NCBI GenBank assembly: GCA_028687435.1
Contig: JAQUAF010000016.1
Location: forward strand, 1-64,000
DNA from: Verrucomicrobiia bacterium
Lineage (GTDB): Bacteria; Verrucomicrobiota; Verrucomicrobiia; JABWAM01
DNA length: 64,000 bases
Direction: 5' to 3'
This document shows positions 45,647 through 55,828 of this stretch, piece by piece; position 1 is the stretch's first letter, and each line of letters opens with the position of its first letter. A program made the translations under genes and the position numbers. The notes beneath the pieces were generated by a model. The model searched no databases. It was not told the origin of the DNA and was given only the letters and a program-made list of their open reading frames with translations.

Positions 45647-46435
45647 ATGAAACCCACTCTCGACGGAATCTTTGCGGATCCAAAACGGAAGGTCATTACC
45701 GCTCACAGGGGATTGTCCGGGCGGCACCCGGAGAACACGTTGTCGGCTTTCCTGGCGGCTATTGAGTCGGGAGCGGATATTGTGGAGTTCGATGTGCGCG
45801 ACACGCAGGATGAGGTGCCGGTGATTTTGCATGACGACTCATTGGATCGAACCACCAACGGAGCCGGTCTTCTCAGGGAATCGCCCTGGAAGGTTGTGCG
45901 GACGCTCGAGGCAAGTTACTGGAGCGGCACGCATGACGCGGGGCGGCGTCTCCCGGCGCCCGCCGAGCCGGGCGTCCGCATTCCAAGTCTCGAAGAGGTG
46001 TTTGAAACCTTGGGCGGCAGAACGTGCATGAACATCCAAGTCTATGTCAGTTCCGAGGCCATTCTGCGCCGCATTTGCGACATGGTGCGCCAATTCGATC
46101 TGTATTCATCCATTTTCCTCATGGTCCAGGATTTCGCGACCGCCGCCTGCGTGCGCGGGGCGGACCGTGAAATTCAGCTCTGCATTGGCGTTGACCGGGA
46201 TCAACCAGGGCGGCATTTTGAGGCGGGCGCCCGTTATCTTCAGCCCTGGCGCGGCATCCTGACGCCGGCTTTTCGCGACGAGGTCGCCAGGCTTGGCCTG
46301 CGCACGAGCGTGTTCTTTGCGAATACGCCGGAGGATATGGCCGCGATTTGGGACATGGGATTCCAAGGCATCCTGACCGATTGCTGCGATGTCGCGGTTC
46401 AGGTGCGCAAAGAACGATTCAAGGTCGGATTCTAA
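45647..46435 (+). CDS. Glycerophosphodiester phosphodiesterase family protein
   Basis: ITAHRGLSGRHPENTLSAFLAAIESGADIVEFDVRDTQDEVPVILHDDSLDRTTNG. Confidence 0.93.
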   Translation: MKPTLDGIFADPKRKVITAHRGLSGRHPENTLSAFLAAIESGADIVEFDVRDTQDEVPVILHDDSLDRTTNGAGLLRESPWKVVRTLEASYWSGTHDAGRRLPAPAEPGVRIPSLEEVFETLGGRTCMNIQVYVSSEAILRRICDMVRQFDLYSSIFLMVQDFATAACVRGADREIQLCIGVDRDQPGRHFEAGARYLQPWRGILTPAFRDEVARLGLRTSVFFANTPEDMAAIWDMGFQGILTDCCDVAVQVRKERFKVGF

Positions 46436-46686
46436 CCGATCAAGCGATCATATTCCTTGTGATGACCAATCCAAAACCAATGGATGCAGTCTTCCTTGAT
46501 CAATCCCAAAGCCCGGTAGTCTCGCCCGATTCGCACTGACCAATAACCGTGCACTTTTTTAAAGTGAAGGGATGGATGCCGGGGATTTATCATCCAGAGA
46601 ACATACGCCTTGGCCGCTGTTTCCCGGACTTCAAGAGGCAATTTAAGAAAAAGCTCCCGAAAACTATGGGTTACGGAGGAATTCAT
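46432..46686 (-). CDS. RelE/ParE-type toxin-like protein
   Basis: LHFKKVHGYWSVRIGRDYRALGLIKEDCIHWFWIGHHKEYDRLI, a RelE-like fold pattern. Confidence 0.75.
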   Translation of the reverse strand: MNSSVTHSFRELFLKLPLEVRETAAKAYVLWMINPRHPSLHFKKVHGYWSVRIGRDYRALGLIKEDCIHWFWIGHHKEYDRLIG

Positions 46687-46888
46687 CGAGAGGAATCGTT
46701 TTGCCGGAAGTAATTTCCTTCACAGCCTGCTGCGCCAGTTTGTCCAATGGTTCGCCGGGTTTTGCGTCGGCCTCAATTTCATGGTCCCACACGCCGTTCC
46801 GGTGTTTTTCGAACCATTCCGCCAATTTCCAAAAGTCTTTTTTGGGAAGTTTGACGATGGCTTGCTCGATTTCCTCAACCGTGCTCAT
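46664..46888 (-). CDS. Antitoxin component of the TA pair
   Basis: MSTVEEIEQAIVKLPKKDFWKLAEWFEKHRNGVWDHEIEADAKPGEPLDKLAQQAVKEITSGKTIPLDEFL; overlaps the toxin start. Track ORF extends to 46948. Confidence 0.7.
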   Translation of the reverse strand: MSTVEEIEQAIVKLPKKDFWKLAEWFEKHRNGVWDHEIEADAKPGEPLDKLAQQAVKEITSGKTIPLDEFLRNP

Positions 46889-46944
46889 GCCAACAATGTA
46901 GCGATTGCGAGCTTCAAAATCAACTGTGCAGGGTTTTATGAAAA

Positions 46945-47787
46945 TCATGATTTTTCTCCGGTTTTGTCCGGGCAGGCTCCCAGCAAGGGGCGCAGTTTGA
47001 GTCCCAGGTAGGACGGTTTGTCAATTCGGGATTGGTCTGCGGGGCGGGGGGCGATGGCGCGGACGTAATATTCGCCAAGGGTCAGGGATGTCGCGCCCGC
47101 GGCGGCGAGTCGCAGAAGATCCCGGGCCACCCGGATCAGTTCCGGAGTGGAGGGCGGCCGGCGCACTTCGGGATGTTCGCGCAGCATCCAGGCGGGACCG
47201 ATCAATGCCTCGCACGCGGCAACCGTCAATTTCGGGATCTGCTGTTGGAGGATGCGCGTTTCCACCTCGGGCGAGGGCCAGCGCATCATGACCATGCGGC
47301 AACGCCGCGCCAGGGGACCGGTGACATCGCGGTGGTCATTCTTGGTGATGACCACCAGCAACTGGTCGCTCCTGGCCTTGAACAATCCCACCTGGGGAAC
47401 CAGCAGATGTCCTTCTTGCAACAGGGCCAGCAAAAAGGCGTCCACGCTTTCCTCCGCCTTGTCCAGTTCGTCCAGGAGCAGCACCACCTTGCGTTCCTGC
47501 GAAAGACGCATCGCCTTGGGAAGAATGCCCAGTTCGCGTTCGCCGGTCCGCCCCGGCAGGGTGTCGAGCAGCAATTCCTCGCGTCCCGCGCCCCGCATAC
47601 ATGTGAAATGCATCAATTCCGCCCCCAGCCGCCATGCCGCGTGCTTGCCCAGAAATGTTTTTCCGCATCCCGGCGGACCGTCCAGCAGAATGGCGCTGAT
47701 GCCCGGCGCGAGTCCCATGTCCGCCAGCGCCTGTTCCAGCATCGCCATCGCCACCTCGTCGGTGACGATATATTCGGGAATGTTCAT
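46945..47787 (-). CDS. MoxR-like AAA+ ATPase
   Basis: Walker A LLDGPPGCGKTFLGKHAAW, Walker B KVVLLLDELDKAE, VVITKNDHRDVTGPLARRC. Confidence 0.88.
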   Translation of the reverse strand: MNIPEYIVTDEVAMAMLEQALADMGLAPGISAILLDGPPGCGKTFLGKHAAWRLGAELMHFTCMRGAGREELLLDTLPGRTGERELGILPKAMRLSQERKVVLLLDELDKAEESVDAFLLALLQEGHLLVPQVGLFKARSDQLLVVITKNDHRDVTGPLARRCRMVMMRWPSPEVETRILQQQIPKLTVAACEALIGPAWMLREHPEVRRPPSTPELIRVARDLLRLAAAGATSLTLGEYYVRAIAPRPADQSRIDKPSYLGLKLRPLLGACPDKTGEKS

Positions 47788-47841
47788 TTTGGGGAAAGAT
47801 TGAAGGTTGTCAGGCTGAAGGCATGAAGCGCTTTACCGGCA

Positions 47842-48012
47842 TCAGGGAAACAGCAAAAAATTTTTGCGGGGCGGTTTGGGGGCGCGGCTGGAAAACTCGC
47901 GCCGGATTCCCTCCAGATGCATTCCCATCCGCCTCGGCATGCGGCAGGCCAGGCACAAGTGCAGCGCCACCCGTCCCCAACGATAATCGGCAAGAAACAA
48001 TCCAATGTTCAT
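47842..48012 (-). CDS. Small 56-aa ORF, not in the supplied ORF track
   Basis: MNIGLFLADYRWGRVALHLCLACRMPRRMGMHLEGIRREFSSRAPKPPRKNFLLFP; near-consensus Shine-Dalgarno AGGAGG 5 nt upstream of the ATG. Confidence 0.55.
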   Translation of the reverse strand: MNIGLFLADYRWGRVALHLCLACRMPRRMGMHLEGIRREFSSRAPKPPRKNFLLFP

Positions 48013-48030
48013 GGCAACCTCCTTGAGATT

Positions 48031-48269
48031 CCCATGGGATGATATGCATCGGGCGTCAAGCCGCCTGGCGGTGTCCCTCCCAATGCCGCTAACTTTTCGT
48101 CTGAAGCTAAGCGGTGCGGGAACCCCGCCCTCCTATGTCTGCACGGAAAAAATGGAGGGCGGGGCTCCCGCACCGCCGCCGAGCAGAGCGGAATCCAGCC
48201 GCATTTTTGAGGGGGATGATAAAAAAATGATCCCGGCCGCTTGACGCCGCATGCACGTCGTCCCATGGG
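48031..48269. repeat. Inverted-repeat-bounded intergenic element with internal 23-bp-stem hairpin
   Basis: Outer IR CCCATGGGATGATATGCATCGGGCGTCAAGC (48031-48061) against 48239-48269, about 26/31 complementary. Internal GCGGTGCGGGAACCCCGCCCTCC (48111-48133) / GGAGGGCGGGGCTCCCGCACCGC (48154-48176), 22/23 complementary. Confidence 0.65.
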
Positions 48270-48274
48270 ATGGT

Positions 48275-48643
48275 ATGAAAACATTATTTTCCCCATTTCC
48301 GGCGGCCCCCGCTTTCTGGCGCGGGATTTTCAGGCGGCAGGCCAGGCTTTTCCTTGCCATTCTGTTTTTTGCGGGGCTTTCGCCGTCCGGCGCGTGGCTG
48401 GCGGTTCCGGCGGCGGCGCAGACGGTCATTCCCGCCAGTTCGCAGGGCGAAACGCAGTTTGCGGCGCTTCATTTCGCCTTCAAGCGTTATGTGTGGCTTT
48501 TTATCGCCATCGCCGGCCTGATTGCCGCCGTTTTGTCCTCCTTTGGCAAGCACGGGTGGCTGATCAACGTGGTGATCGGCGCAGTAGCCGCCGGCTTTCT
48601 GGTTTACATCATCGCCCTGGCCCACGACACCGGCAACGTCTGA
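48275..48643 (+). CDS. VirB2/TrbC-like pilin-like membrane protein (putative)
   Basis: Signal-peptide-like N-terminus then two TM segments (YVWLFIAIAGLIAAVLSSFG, WLINVVIGAVAAGFLVYIIAL); followed by a second similar protein, then VirB3- and VirB4-like genes. Confidence 0.55.
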   Translation: MKTLFSPFPAAPAFWRGIFRRQARLFLAILFFAGLSPSGAWLAVPAAAQTVIPASSQGETQFAALHFAFKRYVWLFIAIAGLIAAVLSSFGKHGWLINVVIGAVAAGFLVYIIALAHDTGNV

Positions 48644-48652
48644 GGAACAGCC

Positions 48653-48961
48653 ATGCGCATTCGATGCATCCTGCTCGCCTGCTTGTTTTTCTGTGCGACT
48701 GCCGCACCGGCCGCGGACGCCGCAGCATCCCCGGCGCCCCTTGCGGTTGCCGGCGTTGTGCGGGAGCTTTTCGATGAAATACAGGTTTTGATGGCAAAGA
48801 TGTCGATGGTGGTGGCGGCGTTCATCGGGCTTTTTTTATCCCTTGGCATCGCATTCGGGCTCACCAGCCGCGAAGCCGCGCTCGGCCCCTATATCCTCGG
48901 CGTCATCGTCATCTGCTTCGCCCACCTGATCGCCGCCACCTTTCACATGGTTTTCGAATGA
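48653..48961 (+). CDS. VirB2/TrbC-like pilin-like membrane protein 2 (putative)
   Basis: Signal peptide (MRIRCILLACLFFCATAAPAADA) plus two TM segments; size and position. Confidence 0.5.
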   Translation: MRIRCILLACLFFCATAAPAADAAASPAPLAVAGVVRELFDEIQVLMAKMSMVVAAFIGLFLSLGIAFGLTSREAALGPYILGVIVICFAHLIAATFHMVFE

Positions 48962-49012
48962 ACGCACGATGGCGGCGCAAATCCAAAATCTAAAATCTAA
49001 AATTCCCCAAAC

Positions 49013-49369
49013 ATGAACTCCGATCAAACCGATCTGCCTGTGATCCGCTCCAGCATGGCCACGGAAGACCCGGGAACCTTTCTCGGCCTGGAGGGAATGG
49101 GCGTTTTGTATGTGTTGATTCTTTTCGCCGTGACCATGGCGCTGGCCGACAACCTGCCGTTGGCCGTTGTCCTTGCCGGCGGTTTGTATTTCGCCCTGAA
49201 ACTCTATCTGCGCGGCAAACCCCCGCGGTTTCTATTGCATCTGTGCGTGTTTCAAATCCGGACCTGGACGGGCGCCACGACGTTCACCCACCACGTTTCG
49301 GAACGCGATGCCCCCTTTGCACGCCAAGGGGACGGGTTGTTTGAACTGAAGACTGAAGGAAAAACCTGA
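49013..49369 (+). CDS. VirB3/TrbD-like membrane protein (putative)
   Basis: MGVLYVLILFAVTMALADNLPLAVVLAGGLYFALKLYLRGKPPRFLLHL; immediately upstream of the VirB4-like ATPase. Confidence 0.6.
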   Translation: MNSDQTDLPVIRSSMATEDPGTFLGLEGMGVLYVLILFAVTMALADNLPLAVVLAGGLYFALKLYLRGKPPRFLLHLCVFQIRTWTGATTFTHHVSERDAPFARQGDGLFELKTEGKT

Positions 49370-49370
49370 C

Positions 49371-52049
49371 ATGACTTCTTTCTTTCAAAAATTTTTCGCG
49401 AATCCGCTGCAAAGATGGCTCCGGCTTGGTCCGGATCGGACCCCGATCCATCACGATCTGGCGGACGAATTGCCTTACATCGACCTCTGGCAACGCCACC
49501 TGATCGACAAATACGGCTGTGTTCACGGCTTTTACGAGGTGGATTCCCCTCCCGCCGATGTCGCTTCCACCGATCGGCTTGTCCGGTTGCAGGATCAACT
49601 GGTCCAGATCATGGACAAGATGCCGGATCGCATCGTGCAGCAGCAATTTCATTACACCACCAACGGGGATTACCGTCCGCTGCTTTTGGAGCACGCCCGT
49701 CATGAATGCCGCGATCCCCTGGCCGCCCATTTGCGCCAGCTCCGAACCCGGCGTCTTCTGAAGGAATGCGCCGCCCGGCGGCTGGTGAGGGCCTCCACCA
49801 TGATGGTTCTTTCCTGCGCCCCCCAGACGGCGACCGATGCCGCCTCCCCGTTGACTCGCGAATTCCGCCGCTTGGGGGATGCCCAGACCGCCCTGCAACC
49901 CCGAATTCTTCGCGAGGTCGAGTTCGATCAGGCCCTTGGCGCGCTGCATTCCGCCGAAAATGTCATCCGCGACGCCTTTGAACCCCTCGGCATCCGGTTC
50001 AGGCCTCTGGCCTCGGAGGAGATCGCCTCTTACTTTCATCGTTTGTTCAATCCGGATCTCGCCATCGAACAAGGTTTGCCGCTCCCCTACGATTACGACA
50101 CCACCCCTTTTCTGGACGCCTGGTTGATCAACGAAATCCGTCTTCATCCCGACTCCATGCAATGGGGCGGTTATCATCATGCCGTTGTTTCCCTTTTCCA
50201 AAAGCCCCATTCCTGCACGGCGCGAACCCGTCTCATCGACCGTCTTACCCGCGCGCTTCCATTTCATGATCTCCGTGTCAGCCTTTCCATCAGGCGATTG
50301 GACAAGGATGCCGTCCTTGACCAACTGAAACGCAAACGCGCCCAGACACACGGACGCCGTCTGGAGGGCATCAATCCCCTGTTGGACCGCATTGATCCCC
50401 TGTCGAACAAGGACAGGACGGGGCAGGGACAGCAGATGGATATTGAAGCCAATGATGAGATTGAGGAGATCAACAACATTCTCTCCGATCTCAGGGCTGG
50501 CAGGGATCTGTTTGTTCAAGCCCAACTGACCGTTCACTTGTGGCATCGCGATCCGGAAGTTTTGAACCGCCGGCGCGAAATCCTGCTGGCGCGGATGGCC
50601 GACATGAACAAGGCCCGCGCCTACTGGGACCGCAGCAGCACGCTGCCGGTGATGGTCAGTTCGCTGCCCGGCGTTTACCGTCCCATGGAACGCCCGTTGA
50701 AGATGTTCGGACGCATGGCCGCCAGCCTGATTCCCTTGCATCGCGGGTTTGAAGGCGGCCAGCCTCCCGTCTGCATCCTGCGCAACAGCACGGGCGGCCT
50801 GGCGGCGCTCGACCTTTTTTCCACGCGCAACACCGATGCGCCCCTGGCCATCATTTCCGGCGCCATGGGCAGCGGCAAATCCACCCTTGCCAATCAGTTG
50901 TTGCTGCAACACCTCGTCAATGACCCGCTGCTGATCATTTTGGATGTCGGAGGCAGTTACGATCCCCTGGTGCAACTGTTGCGGGGGCGCACCCTTCGTT
51001 TCGACGAAAAGGAACCTTGCGCATTCAATCCGTTGCAGCTTTACGCCACCATCCGCCAGGGAGTCCTGGCCGAACCCGACGCGCTGGCCCGCCAGCGTTT
51101 GATGGCCAATCTTGAAGCCATGCTGTCCAAGCCGGACGATCCCGGCGGCAGCCTGAGCGATTCCCAGCGCAACAGTCTCAGCACCGCCATTGTGAAAACC
51201 TTTGCGGAGGTTGCCCGCCGGAAACTGCCCGCGGCCCGGCTGACGCACCTGCTCGAGTCTCTTGTGAAACTGGCCGATCCGGCTTCGCTCAATCTGGCGG
51301 ACCGGCTCAGGCTTTACGTCCAGGGCGGCGAGTATGGAGCGTGGTTTGACGCTCCGACGCAGCTTGGCGTCCGCGGCGATGATCGTGTGCTTTATTTCGA
51401 CCTGAAAGGCATTCGCCAGCATCCCGCATTGTTGCGCGCCCTGATTCCGCTGGTGGTGAATCTCATTTACGATTTGTTGATGGCCGACCGGAGCCGCCGC
51501 AAGATTCTGCTGGCGGATGAAATGTGGCAGCATATCGCCAATCCCCGGCTCATGGATTTCATTGTCGAGATCGGCAAAACCATTCGCAAGGAGAACGCCG
51601 CCTTTATTGGTTCCACCCAGAGCCTGGCGGACATCACGGCGATTCCCGCGGTTGCCAACGCCCTTGTTCAAAACACCGAGACATGGTTTTTGTTCGATCA
51701 GGGAACCCTGTCTTTCCAGAAACAAGCCGCCGAATTGCTTTCCCTGACTGACGGCGAAACCGGCATTTTGCAATCCCTGCAACGCCGGCAAACGGCGGAT
51801 GACGTCGGAAATCCCGAAACGTGGCGCGAATGCCTGATGGTTCAGGGACGCGGCAAATCGCGCAATTCCGGACGCGTGCGGGTGCAACTGATGCCCGAGG
51901 AATACTGGCTCTCCACAACCAAACCGGACGAATACACCCTGCGCCGGCAGGTGGTGGACCAGTTCAAAGGTGATGTCCTGCGCGCCCTCGATCATCTCGC
52001 CCAACAACACCCGTCCGGTCTCCGGGATCAAAACAAGGCGGTTTCATGA
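49371..52049 (+). CDS. VirB4/TraC-family conjugative-type ATPase
   Basis: Walker A APLAIISGAMGSGKSTLANQLLLQHL, Walker B RKILLADEMWQHIANPRLMDFIVEIGKTIRKENAAFIGSTQSLADI. Confidence 0.87.
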   Translation: MTSFFQKFFANPLQRWLRLGPDRTPIHHDLADELPYIDLWQRHLIDKYGCVHGFYEVDSPPADVASTDRLVRLQDQLVQIMDKMPDRIVQQQFHYTTNGDYRPLLLEHARHECRDPLAAHLRQLRTRRLLKECAARRLVRASTMMVLSCAPQTATDAASPLTREFRRLGDAQTALQPRILREVEFDQALGALHSAENVIRDAFEPLGIRFRPLASEEIASYFHRLFNPDLAIEQGLPLPYDYDTTPFLDAWLINEIRLHPDSMQWGGYHHAVVSLFQKPHSCTARTRLIDRLTRALPFHDLRVSLSIRRLDKDAVLDQLKRKRAQTHGRRLEGINPLLDRIDPLSNKDRTGQGQQMDIEANDEIEEINNILSDLRAGRDLFVQAQLTVHLWHRDPEVLNRRREILLARMADMNKARAYWDRSSTLPVMVSSLPGVYRPMERPLKMFGRMAASLIPLHRGFEGGQPPVCILRNSTGGLAALDLFSTRNTDAPLAIISGAMGSGKSTLANQLLLQHLVNDPLLIILDVGGSYDPLVQLLRGRTLRFDEKEPCAFNPLQLYATIRQGVLAEPDALARQRLMANLEAMLSKPDDPGGSLSDSQRNSLSTAIVKTFAEVARRKLPAARLTHLLESLVKLADPASLNLADRLRLYVQGGEYGAWFDAPTQLGVRGDDRVLYFDLKGIRQHPALLRALIPLVVNLIYDLLMADRSRRKILLADEMWQHIANPRLMDFIVEIGKTIRKENAAFIGSTQSLADITAIPAVANALVQNTETWFLFDQGTLSFQKQAAELLSLTDGETGILQSLQRRQTADDVGNPETWRECLMVQGRGKSRNSGRVRVQLMPEEYWLSTTKPDEYTLRRQVVDQFKGDVLRALDHLAQQHPSGLRDQNKAVS

Positions 52050-54637
52050 AAACAATTTTCTTGTTGGCCATTCATTTGTTCGTCTCCTCCCTTTATTCCC
52101 AACCGCCAACGGTCACTGCGAAGCAATTGGATGAATTGGACCGGGCGCCCAGTCTGACCCATGCCCTTGGATATGACCGCATCCTCAAATGGCTTTTTCT
52201 TGCCGGTCAGCCGGGCAACGGACGCCTGAGGATCGAATTATTGGATCAAGCCATTCGCAAGGGAATTGCGGATCGTTCCGCCCTGCCCTTGATCCGCGCC
52301 GATTTGCTGCGCGGGGATGACGAACTGCGGGATGCGATCATCCGGTTGCTTCTTCATGCCAATCATTCCCCAGCCGATGCCCGGACTTTTCTGGATGCAT
52401 GCGCAACCGGCCGGGGGGAAACCCTGTTGAGACCTTTTCTTGACCTTGCCGCCGGCGATCCTTCCGCGATGAATATTTTGAGGGGTTTTTTCCTCAAGAC
52501 ACCCGAAGAATGGCCCGATCTTGTCGCCGGGTTGGATGCGGCGTTGGCGGGCGGAACAAATCTTTCCGCGTCCATCTGGCGGCAGACCCTTGCCCGCGCA
52601 TCGGGGTTGGATGAGAAAGAGTCCGTTGATTTGTGGAACAGAGCTGTTCAAGGCGGTGCGGAGGCGCGCGGACGCATGCTCCAGGCTTTCCGGATGCACT
52701 GGATGGATTATTATCCGCTGGCCCGTCTTTTGCGCGAAACGACTGTGTCAGAGCCCGGCTGGCACCGGCGGGTTTGGCGCGATTTGATGAAGAAGGTGGC
52801 TGACGATCCGGAACTGCTTTGCGAATACGGAACGAGATTGCAACAGGCGGCGCCTTTGCACGGGGAAATCCGATCCCTGCTGGAGGAAACCGTGCGCCGG
52901 GCCGGGGCGGAAATTGCCGCCGGTTGCGAGGCGGGCGCTGTCATTCCGGACAGCCGTCATGCCTGGCTTTGCCGCCAGATCAATCCTTTCCGTGAACGTT
53001 ACGCATCGGCGGAACGCCGCCGGGAACAGTTCCGAACGGCGTTGACGCGTCTGGTTCATGAATCCACTGACTGGGCCGATGCCATTCTCTGGCATCTGAC
53101 ACGCCCGGCTGAGGCGGCGGCGGCCGCCACCCGGCAGGCCATCCGGTCCGGTCTGGCGGACGATATTGCCGCCGCGCGGCTGGCCGCCGGTGAATATCCC
53201 CTGTTCAGCGCCGAATTTCAGGAAAAACTTGAAGCTCTTGGCCCCTATGATCCGGGAATCACCGCCGGGGCTTTTCGCAAGGCGTGGAACAACGGTTCAT
53301 TGGAAAGAAGATCCATTTTGAAATATGCCTCCGCCGCCGGACATTTGTTGGCCAGCCAGGATGAAGCGTGGAGCGAGGCTTTCAAATCGCAAACCGAAGA
53401 CGCCGAGCGATTGTTGCGCTCGCTGGCGGCCATTGCGATAAAAGGCGATCCGGACGCCGCCGCTGCATGGCTGCAAACCATGCTGGCCAACAATTCCCTG
53501 TTGCGGGACAACTTTTGTCTTTGGATGGATAAGAATCGGGGCTGTCAGGCCGGCGGATTGACCTCCTTGCATTGGCTTCGCCGATTGGATGCGCAACTTC
53601 AACAGGGTTTGTGGATCAATCAGTCCGGCGTATCGCAGTTTAAAACGCATTTTGCCGCCTATGCGCAAACAGAAGAGGGATGGAAATGGGTCCGGCTTCA
53701 TCTGGCCATCGAATCGTTTGCCTTTCCAAACATCCTGCGCCGCCAATTGGTTCAAACGCTGGCCGGCGATCCGAAAAGGCTTTGGAGAATTTACGACATA
53801 ACGGTTTCCATGCCGGCAACTGCGGGAACAGCTTGGACGCCGTCTTTTTGCCGGCTGGCTCTGGCCCATCAGCTTCCCTTGTGGTTGTTGCGCGAAGTCA
53901 GCCGCCGGAATCCCGCTGCTGCGCATGCGGCAGGCCTTTTATGGGATGCCTTGCTTGAACCCGGTTCATCCGTGCTGGAAACACTTCGCCAAAGCGTCAT
54001 TCTCCATGCGGCGCCCAGCGATCTGCGGCATCTTCATGCGCTGGCCCTGGATTTTGCCTGCCATGCCCCAGCCGGGTGGAACATCTGGAAACCGCTCGCG
54101 CAGCAGGCGTTTCCCGATTGGAAACAAAAAACCGATGAACAGTTGAGGATGCTGTCCTCCTCGCTGATTGAAAAGGGAGGTCTGACAGGCGATCTTTTGC
54201 AAAAAGTTCTTCAGGACCAAACCCTCGCCGAATCCTGGCGGCGGGGAATTTTGCGCGCGGTCAAGTTTCAGGACAATGCCTATGTCCTGGCCGACATCCT
54301 TTTGCGGCGCGCCGATTTGAGGGCGGAGTGGGCAAAGATCGCGCAACAGACGCTGGATCGGGAGCCCTGCCTGATGCGGCAGATGGTTGAATCCCTGGCC
54401 AGACAACGCGCCGGCGAATCAGGCGCCAGGGCGGCTGTCGAACGCCTGCGCTGCGGCATGGCCGGGCAAATCGTCCATGACCGGATTTTTTTCGAACAAA
54501 TTCTCGCCGACCGGCAGGCCGGCTTCAGGCAGGAAGCCGCACGGCAGGCGGAACTCATCCTCGGCAAAAGGGTTGTTGCCGGCTGGGTGAACTCACAATC
54601 CAACCCTCAACAAACAAAGAAAAAGGAATCATCATGA
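52046..54637 (+). CDS. Large exported alpha-helical protein of unknown function
   Basis: Signal peptide MKTIFLLAIHLFVSSLYSQ; predominantly helical composition; ATGA overlaps with both neighbours. Confidence 0.75.
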   Translation: MKTIFLLAIHLFVSSLYSQPPTVTAKQLDELDRAPSLTHALGYDRILKWLFLAGQPGNGRLRIELLDQAIRKGIADRSALPLIRADLLRGDDELRDAIIRLLLHANHSPADARTFLDACATGRGETLLRPFLDLAAGDPSAMNILRGFFLKTPEEWPDLVAGLDAALAGGTNLSASIWRQTLARASGLDEKESVDLWNRAVQGGAEARGRMLQAFRMHWMDYYPLARLLRETTVSEPGWHRRVWRDLMKKVADDPELLCEYGTRLQQAAPLHGEIRSLLEETVRRAGAEIAAGCEAGAVIPDSRHAWLCRQINPFRERYASAERRREQFRTALTRLVHESTDWADAILWHLTRPAEAAAAATRQAIRSGLADDIAAARLAAGEYPLFSAEFQEKLEALGPYDPGITAGAFRKAWNNGSLERRSILKYASAAGHLLASQDEAWSEAFKSQTEDAERLLRSLAAIAIKGDPDAAAAWLQTMLANNSLLRDNFCLWMDKNRGCQAGGLTSLHWLRRLDAQLQQGLWINQSGVSQFKTHFAAYAQTEEGWKWVRLHLAIESFAFPNILRRQLVQTLAGDPKRLWRIYDITVSMPATAGTAWTPSFCRLALAHQLPLWLLREVSRRNPAAAHAAGLLWDALLEPGSSVLETLRQSVILHAAPSDLRHLHALALDFACHAPAGWNIWKPLAQQAFPDWKQKTDEQLRMLSSSLIEKGGLTGDLLQKVLQDQTLAESWRRGILRAVKFQDNAYVLADILLRRADLRAEWAKIAQQTLDREPCLMRQMVESLARQRAGESGARAAVERLRCGMAGQIVHDRIFFEQILADRQAGFRQEAARQAELILGKRVVAGWVNSQSNPQQTKKKESS

Positions 54638-55263
54638 ACACCAGACAAATCCTCATCACCATGCTCGGCGCCACGCTCAGCCTCGGCTCGCTTTGCGCCA
54701 AGGACATCACCCTGCGCGCGACCGTCATCGAACGGGAACTCGCTAGGCCGGAGGAGGCGGAGAAATTGAAGGCCGATGGCGGCGCGTTGTCCTCGTCAAA
54801 GGCGCAGCAACTGATCGAAGCGGGCAAAAGCCTGCAAGCGGTGGTGAAGCAGAAGAACGTCCAGCTTGATTACGGCAAATCCGTCAGCGTTGCCGGAGCC
54901 AAGACCACCCGGTGCGAGTACACAAGCCAGGTGGATGACAAGACCCTGCAACCGAAAAAGAAGGGGAAAAAGGCGCTCGGTTTTTCCGCGCGAATCACCC
55001 CACGCGCCTGCGGTGACGGCGTCTGGCTGTCCGCGGATGCCAGGGATACCCGGATTTCCGGTTTCAAGAACCTGAAAACGGGCGACGGAAAACAAGTGGA
55101 AATCCCGACGTTTGTCCAGCAGTCGGCCACCGGCGCCGGAGCGGTTCTTCCTGCGGACGGATCAAGCAGTTATGTCCTTCCCATGCTGAGTTCCTTCTGC
55201 GATCCCGAATCGAAGAAGATCAAGTATGTGCAGACCATCCTGGTGCTGGACATCATGAAATGA
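54634..55263 (+). CDS. Exported protein of unknown function
   Basis: Signal peptide MNTRQILITMLGATLSLGSLCAKD; ATGA overlap with upstream gene. Confidence 0.75.
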   Translation: MNTRQILITMLGATLSLGSLCAKDITLRATVIERELARPEEAEKLKADGGALSSSKAQQLIEAGKSLQAVVKQKNVQLDYGKSVSVAGAKTTRCEYTSQVDDKTLQPKKKGKKALGFSARITPRACGDGVWLSADARDTRISGFKNLKTGDGKQVEIPTFVQQSATGAGAVLPADGSSSYVLPMLSSFCDPESKKIKYVQTILVLDIMK

Positions 55264-55324
55264 CAAGGAATCCCCACGATGGCGCGGGCGGATCACCGCC
55301 CGCGCCATCAACATCCGGTTTCCC

Positions 55325-55828
55325 ATGAAAATTTTTAACCCCATGTTTTTCCAACGGTTCGCCGCAGCCCTTTTATGCGGGGTGGCATTTCTTTTTTCCT
55401 CCTGCGCCCAGTCTTCGAAAACAGCCGCGTCCGACCATCCCACCCGGCAATTGGTCGACAACGCCGTGCGTTACGGCGCCATTGGAACAGCAGGAACGGC
55501 CGGATTTTTTGCCGGCAAGGAACTTGGCGGCGACAATGCCGCGGGCGCCGTTGGCGCGGCGGTGGGCGCGGGCGGCCTGTATGCGCTGGAGAAATTCACC
55601 GATCGCAAACAGCGGGATGAGTACGAACGGGGAATTGCCGCCGGCGCGGCCCAGGCCCGCGCGGAACAGCTTGAGGAACGGTGGACCAGGGAAGCCAGAT
55701 ACGGGCTGCCGCCCGATGGCGCATCCGCCCCGCCCCAGTTCAAATACCGGCGGGTGTACGTTCCCTCCCGTGTCATCAATGGTGTGAAGATGGAGGGGCA
55801 ATATCAAACCGTCGTCGTTTCGCCATGA
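55325..55828 (+). CDS. Glycine-rich (glycine-zipper-like) lipoprotein
   Basis: Lipobox FLFSSC; AVRYGAIGTAGTAGFFAGKELGGDNAAGAVGAAVGAGGLYAL segment. Confidence 0.75.
   Translation: MKIFNPMFFQRFAAALLCGVAFLFSSCAQSSKTAASDHPTRQLVDNAVRYGAIGTAGTAGFFAGKELGGDNAAGAVGAAVGAGGLYALEKFTDRKQRDEYERGIAAGAAQARAEQLEERWTREARYGLPPDGASAPPQFKYRRVYVPSRVINGVKMEGQYQTVVVSP

Follow-up and report, generated by a model that had tools for sequence, protein, structure and literature searches.

As a rule, type IV secretion systems (T4SSs) are detected and classified one locus at a time. Eight VirB4-based classes of T4SS are recognized (PMC12102498), and protein secretion has been reported only in classes I and T (PMC4793230). 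The system described here is encoded in part in the first 64,000 bp of one contig of a draft Verrucomicrobiia genome, a stretch that we refer to as the window. It shares with MPF_T (VirB/D4 and Trw of R388) the VirB2-VirB3-VirB4 gene order (VirB2 tentatively), a VirB8-VirB9-VirB10 operon, VirB6, VirD4, and the VirB8 fold, but it differs in having a VirB4 of a separate clade, a GspE-like rather than a VirB11 ATPase, genes spread over four loci, and none of the relaxases searched for; an 863-aa solenoid protein, a further exported protein encoded on contig C9, and an AAA+ ATPase are additional to the MPF_T set.

The window very likely carries one operon of a complete but dispersed T4SS, with the remaining operons at three unlinked sites in the genome. 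VirB4, VirB3, VirB6, VirB8, VirB9, VirB10, VirD4, and a GspE-family ATPase are identified by sequence or by predicted fold, and the system belongs to a distinct verrucomicrobial lineage and is probably non-conjugative. Among openly licensed PMC papers we found none describing this T4SS or its accessory parts, and the genome paper for Methylacidiphilum kamchatkense Kam1 mentions neither secretion nor VirB (PMC6688271).

Organization of the window operon

The operon (48251 to 55828, + strand) codes for two VirB2-like proteins, a VirB3-like protein, VirB4, exported proteins of 863 and 209 aa, and a lipoprotein; an AAA+ (MoxR-like) gene lies in the divergent (− strand) arm. All of the open reading frames (ORFs) listed in the original prediction are present with the lengths and order given there, and the 4-nt ATGA overlaps that it described are found between virB4 and the 863-aa gene (at 52046) and between the 863-aa and 209-aa genes (at 54634); the first of these recurs in most relatives and thus does not reflect chance. 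The first VirB2-like gene stands, although it starts at 48251 and not at 48275, as its entry among the proteins proposed for checking had it. A small ORF of 79 aa (47810 to 48049, − strand) is indeed an open frame, but it lacks a codon-phase signal and is unlikely to be a gene. By codon-phase GC content the 130-, 102-, and 209-aa genes look coding, and a 915-aa antisense frame over virB4 (49284 to 52031, − strand) is read as a shadow ORF.

The two genes at the start of the operon (48251 to 48643 and 48653 to 48961, both + strand) code for small exported proteins, each with a signal peptide and two membrane helices and with the position of a VirB2, as was predicted; their matches to TrbC are below threshold. 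The first has the position and topology of the VirB2a slot in relatives, a gene-like GC codon phase, and a marginal profile match (E = 0.08), and the second matches the TrbC/VirB2 Pfam family at E = 0.013, under the cut-off, with 3e-4 reached, also below threshold, in one relative. Profiles compared with the VirB2 proteins of MPF_T, Bacteroidota, and Myxococcus gave no matches. A tandem pair is also present in the Methylacidiphilaceae and in genome G106, and the two window genes may perhaps code for VirB2 pilins. The next gene (49013 to 49369, + strand) codes for a VirB3-like inner-membrane protein, for which the prediction holds: it belongs to an 11-member family (profile E = 2e-38) that hhalign matches (probability 84, E = 7e-6) to the proteins at the VirB3 position of the genome's own conjugation-type loci. 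Profile comparison with the VirB3 of MPF_T gave no match, and profiles of the VirB2, VirB3, lipoprotein, and upstream exported (A4) families found nothing credible among PDB sequences.

The 863-aa exported protein (52046 to 54637, + strand) is a hallmark of the system. It is an alpha-helical repeat protein with a 14-row family and an all-alpha AlphaFold2 model (pLDDT 76.8) that matches no fold in the PDB; among 385 genomes of the class 19 have it, with one additional marginal match, and in a sample of 390 genomes from the phylum it is confined to this class. The 209-aa exported protein (54634 to 55263, + strand) has a signal peptide recognized by eye, begins with an ATGA overlap, and has a GC codon phase of 0.56/0.45/0.75; family searches gave no match, and it is found only here. 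The operon closes with a glycine-rich T4SS lipoprotein (55325 to 55828, + strand), 36 to 48% identical to the operon-closing lipoprotein of relatives, and related lipoproteins lie immediately 3' of VirB4 in other T4SS loci. The lipoprotein gene is tandemly duplicated in genus g38 of the Methylacidiphilaceae (L032, L035, L036, and L040).

The MoxR-like AAA+ ATPase of the divergent arm (46945 to 47787, − strand; AAA_5, E = 5e-13) shares 44% identity, over 268 residues, with the product of a gene in a Methylacidiphilum T4SS locus. Of the 19 genomes bearing the 863-aa protein, 14 have a member of its subfamily (at E = 1e-15), against 0 of 13 selected genomes that lack the 863-aa protein (Fisher P = 3e-5, such values overstating independence in that the positives are mostly from one family); the bearers without the subfamily are G011, G212, and three genomes of family f45. 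This arm is part of the T4SS. Also on the − strand is a toxin-antitoxin pair (46432 to 46948) with a ParE-like toxin (ParE_like, above cut-off), considered as a machine component and set aside: it is AT-richer, no tie to the system was found, and it resembles a bystander. Genome G125 has a homologue of the toxin (44% identity; L031:2277-2516) at ~7 kb from VirB4.

Relationships of the VirB4 ATPase

The 892-aa ATPase (49371 to 52049, + strand) is VirB4 with certainty by sequence, as originally called, since PF19044 (E = 9e-36), the TraC-F model (TIGR02746, E = 1e-49), and the sequence of the solved TrwK/VirB4 structure (E = 4e-15) all match. TraC-F is the best NCBIfam model, yet the match is under the model cut-off. 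This is the likeness to MPF_F, whose hallmarks (TraU, TraW, and others) are not seen in the gene maps and whose TraC clade does not include the window VirB4. The match of VirB4 to mad8 reflects the shared ATPase fold, and with no convincing PADLOC match a defence system was rejected.

Close homologues of VirB4 (38 to 44% identity) are present in four more families, five with the window's own, among 141 relatives searched; the single window VirB4 used as a query against genome contigs found no relatives. In a maximum likelihood tree of 28 proteins, the nine VirB4s of this system, from five families, form one clade (clade V, support 100/100) that excludes the F, T, and B references, that of a Myxococcus plasmid, and the conjugation-type VirB4s of the same and related genomes; VirB4 is thus separate from the MPF_T, MPF_F, and MPF_B clades. 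Support for the nearest neighbor of clade V is 63/44, in a tree with one MPF_G-like reference and with classes I, C, FA, and FATA outside its reference set.

Components encoded elsewhere in the genome

T4SS family profiles add no gene to the window, in agreement with the earlier statement that no VirB6, VirB8, VirB9, VirB10, VirB11, coupling protein, or relaxase was recognized there, nor do they match in the remainder of its contig (C123), so that a complete canonical T4SS just beyond the window is absent. The genome search finds three further unlinked operons, which favors the proposal that the window genes rely on components elsewhere. That on contig C149 codes for VirB8, VirB9, VirB10, and a lipoprotein, ordered as in the Methylacidiphilaceae; that on C9 for a 522-aa exported protein, VirB6, and a GspE-like ATPase, with a divergent FliA-like sigma factor gene; and that on C97 for a VirD4-like coupling protein and two small partner proteins. 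Linkage is judged from contigs because the genome is a draft (154 contigs, 3.7% contamination), but unrelated genes adjoin each of the four operons on either side, and therefore the split is not simply a matter of cutting at contig ends.

VirB10 matches TrbI/VirB10 (PF03743) with 39.7 bits (cut-off, 35), and VirD4 matches the VirD4 of relatives at E = 4e-165 and PF10412 with 66 bits (cut-off, 20.5). VirB6 matches TrbL with 28.4 bits in the genome search, over the cut-off of 25.9, but reaches 19.4 bits, under it, when the called ORF is run through hmmscan, and the VirB6 proteins of relatives have many transmembrane segments. The C149 VirB8 has no match in Pfam; in a Foldseek search with its AlphaFold2 model (from seven sequences, pLDDT 72), the first 26 PDB matches are all VirB8-family domains (TrwG, VirB8, TraE, CagV, TraH, and TraM), from Agrobacterium, Brucella, Bartonella, Rickettsia, R388, pKM101, Helicobacter (CagV), pIP501, and a TraM fragment, and the modeled fold confirms the protein as VirB8. 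VirB9 also has no match in Pfam, and it clusters by BLASTP with the CagX-matching VirB9s of the genome's own conjugation-type loci.

The ATPase on C9 is closer to GspE (317 bits) than to VirB11 (46 bits) and matches T2SSE at E = 3e-91; no VirB11-family ATPase as in MPF_T was identified, the linked ATPase being GspE-like. It shares a C-terminal ATPase domain with the GspE and PilB proteins of type II secretion and type IV pili, but it has a conserved N-terminal region of ~290 aa and is linked to VirB6 or other T4SS operons in four families. Between families it is 32 to 43% identical over ~500 to 670 aa, with the N-terminal region included; a PilB-like ATPase adjoining a pilC-type gene aligns with it mainly in the ATPase domain.

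The same genome (G000) has three more T4SS loci, mutually similar and of conjugation type, on contigs C10, C17, and C65 (L044, L046, and L045). They share with the dispersed system related VirB9, VirB10, and VirB3 proteins and the lipoprotein following VirB4, but they are single compact loci, their VirB4s are ~25% identical to that of the window and belong to another clade, and the 863-aa and AAA+ profiles have no match there.

Distribution and synteny

The order VirB2-VirB2-VirB3-VirB4-863aa-lipoprotein recurs in relatives. In the Methylacidiphilaceae, one of the families with VirB4 homologues, homologues of the four operons lie in one chromosomal locus of 30 to 40 kb, where VirB10 (PF03743) shares the strand of VirB4 and is ~8 kb upstream of it. 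A ParB gene and a sigma factor gene are located between the VirB10 and VirB6 operons of this family (L085 and L033). Genome G125, from another family, has the same split as the window's genome, into VirB4-863aa-lipoprotein, VirB8-9-10, and exported protein-VirB6-GspE. No VirB2 or VirB3 was found immediately upstream of VirB4 in family f45, and by eye a peptidoglycan-binding/L,D-transpeptidase-like gene is in their place (L031:12513-18026). In G212 the 863-aa protein and lipoprotein are present, with no adjoining VirB4 detected.

The 863-aa protein, the AAA+ ATPase, and the 522-aa protein of C9 track the VirB4 clade, in keeping with the suggestion of a highly divergent machine with lineage-specific components, where the co-occurrence profiles include some of the counted genomes and most positives are from one family. 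The C9 protein is strongly matched in 18 of the 19 bearers of the 863-aa protein, with a profile built partly from bearer genomes, whose matches are by construction. Partial relatives of it adjoin genes for MotB-like proteins and for a FliA-like sigma factor, a setting resembling flagellar loci of other families (L105:9441-11201, L106:9689-12427, and L110:9411-11102). None of the weaker matches in families f18, f41, and f49 was counted; several of the loci fetched there have MotB-like genes along with one for a FliA-like sigma factor.

Proposed function of the dispersed system

By analogy with known T4SSs, VirB3 and VirB4 would draw the VirB2-like pilins from the membrane; VirB6, VirB8, VirB9, and VirB10 would form a channel through both membranes, with the lipoproteins at the outer membrane; the GspE-like ATPase would stand in for VirB11; and VirD4 would dock and deliver a cytoplasmic substrate. 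A scaffolding role in the periplasm may fall to the 863-aa exported solenoid and the 522-aa protein, while the AAA+ ATPase may remodel the machine or its cargo. We give roughly even chances to protein export from the cytoplasm as the job of this machine. It is favored over conjugation because the system is single-copy, chromosomal, and conserved throughout a family and the tested relaxases are absent, and it is the best guess because VirD4 is retained; conjugation and then DNA uptake or release follow in our ordering.

No relaxase of the three classes searched for, MOBP, MOBF, and MOBQ (PF03432, PF08751, and PF03389), was found in the window's genome, and the positive control, G121, which has another T4SS, is MOBF-positive. 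Relaxases of these classes were found in only two of the other bearers searched, G073 (one MOBQ, ~100 kb from the T4SS) and G088 (seven MOBF, all off its VirB4 contig, in a genome that carries other T4SS loci too). These absences, together with the one conserved chromosomal place in the Methylacidiphilaceae and the unlinked operons in other families, make it unlikely that the system is a conjugation apparatus, domesticated or active, moving DNA by means of a relaxase encoded elsewhere or of another type, even though a VirD4-like coupling protein is retained, the genome's own conjugation-type elements have a similar VirB9, VirB10, and lipoprotein, and ParB is encoded in the Methylacidiphilaceae locus. 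The lack of the tested relaxases and the chromosomal location are also consistent with a ComB-like or gonococcal-like system, there being general precedent for T4SS use in DNA uptake or release. ComB is not known to include a VirD4, however, and VirD4 is kept here; competence or DNA-release genes are not seen beside any of the operons, and we regard this role as less probable still. That the window operon is a self-sufficient minimal VirB2-3-4 machine and the other operons are unrelated fits a contig with no other T4SS gene, but it is very improbable: homologues of all of the parts are together in the Methylacidiphilaceae, co-occurrence is tight, and VirB6, VirB8, VirB9, VirB10, a GspE-type ATPase, and VirD4 of the same system are encoded in the genome, contrary to the minimal reading of the original prediction.

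Protein export thus remains the preferred function, and we tentatively suggest, at a little under even confidence, that this is a ninth mating-pair-formation-like T4SS class, native to the Verrucomicrobiota and now exporting proteins from dispersed chromosomal loci, with VirB11 replaced by a GspE-type motor and with a dedicated AAA+ remodeler and an exported solenoid scaffold. Finders that look for single loci would overlook a complete T4SS spread over four, or take it for a minimal one, as in the present case. The methane-oxidizing Methylacidiphilaceae and their relatives, some of which are in culture, gain a secretion machine with new components.
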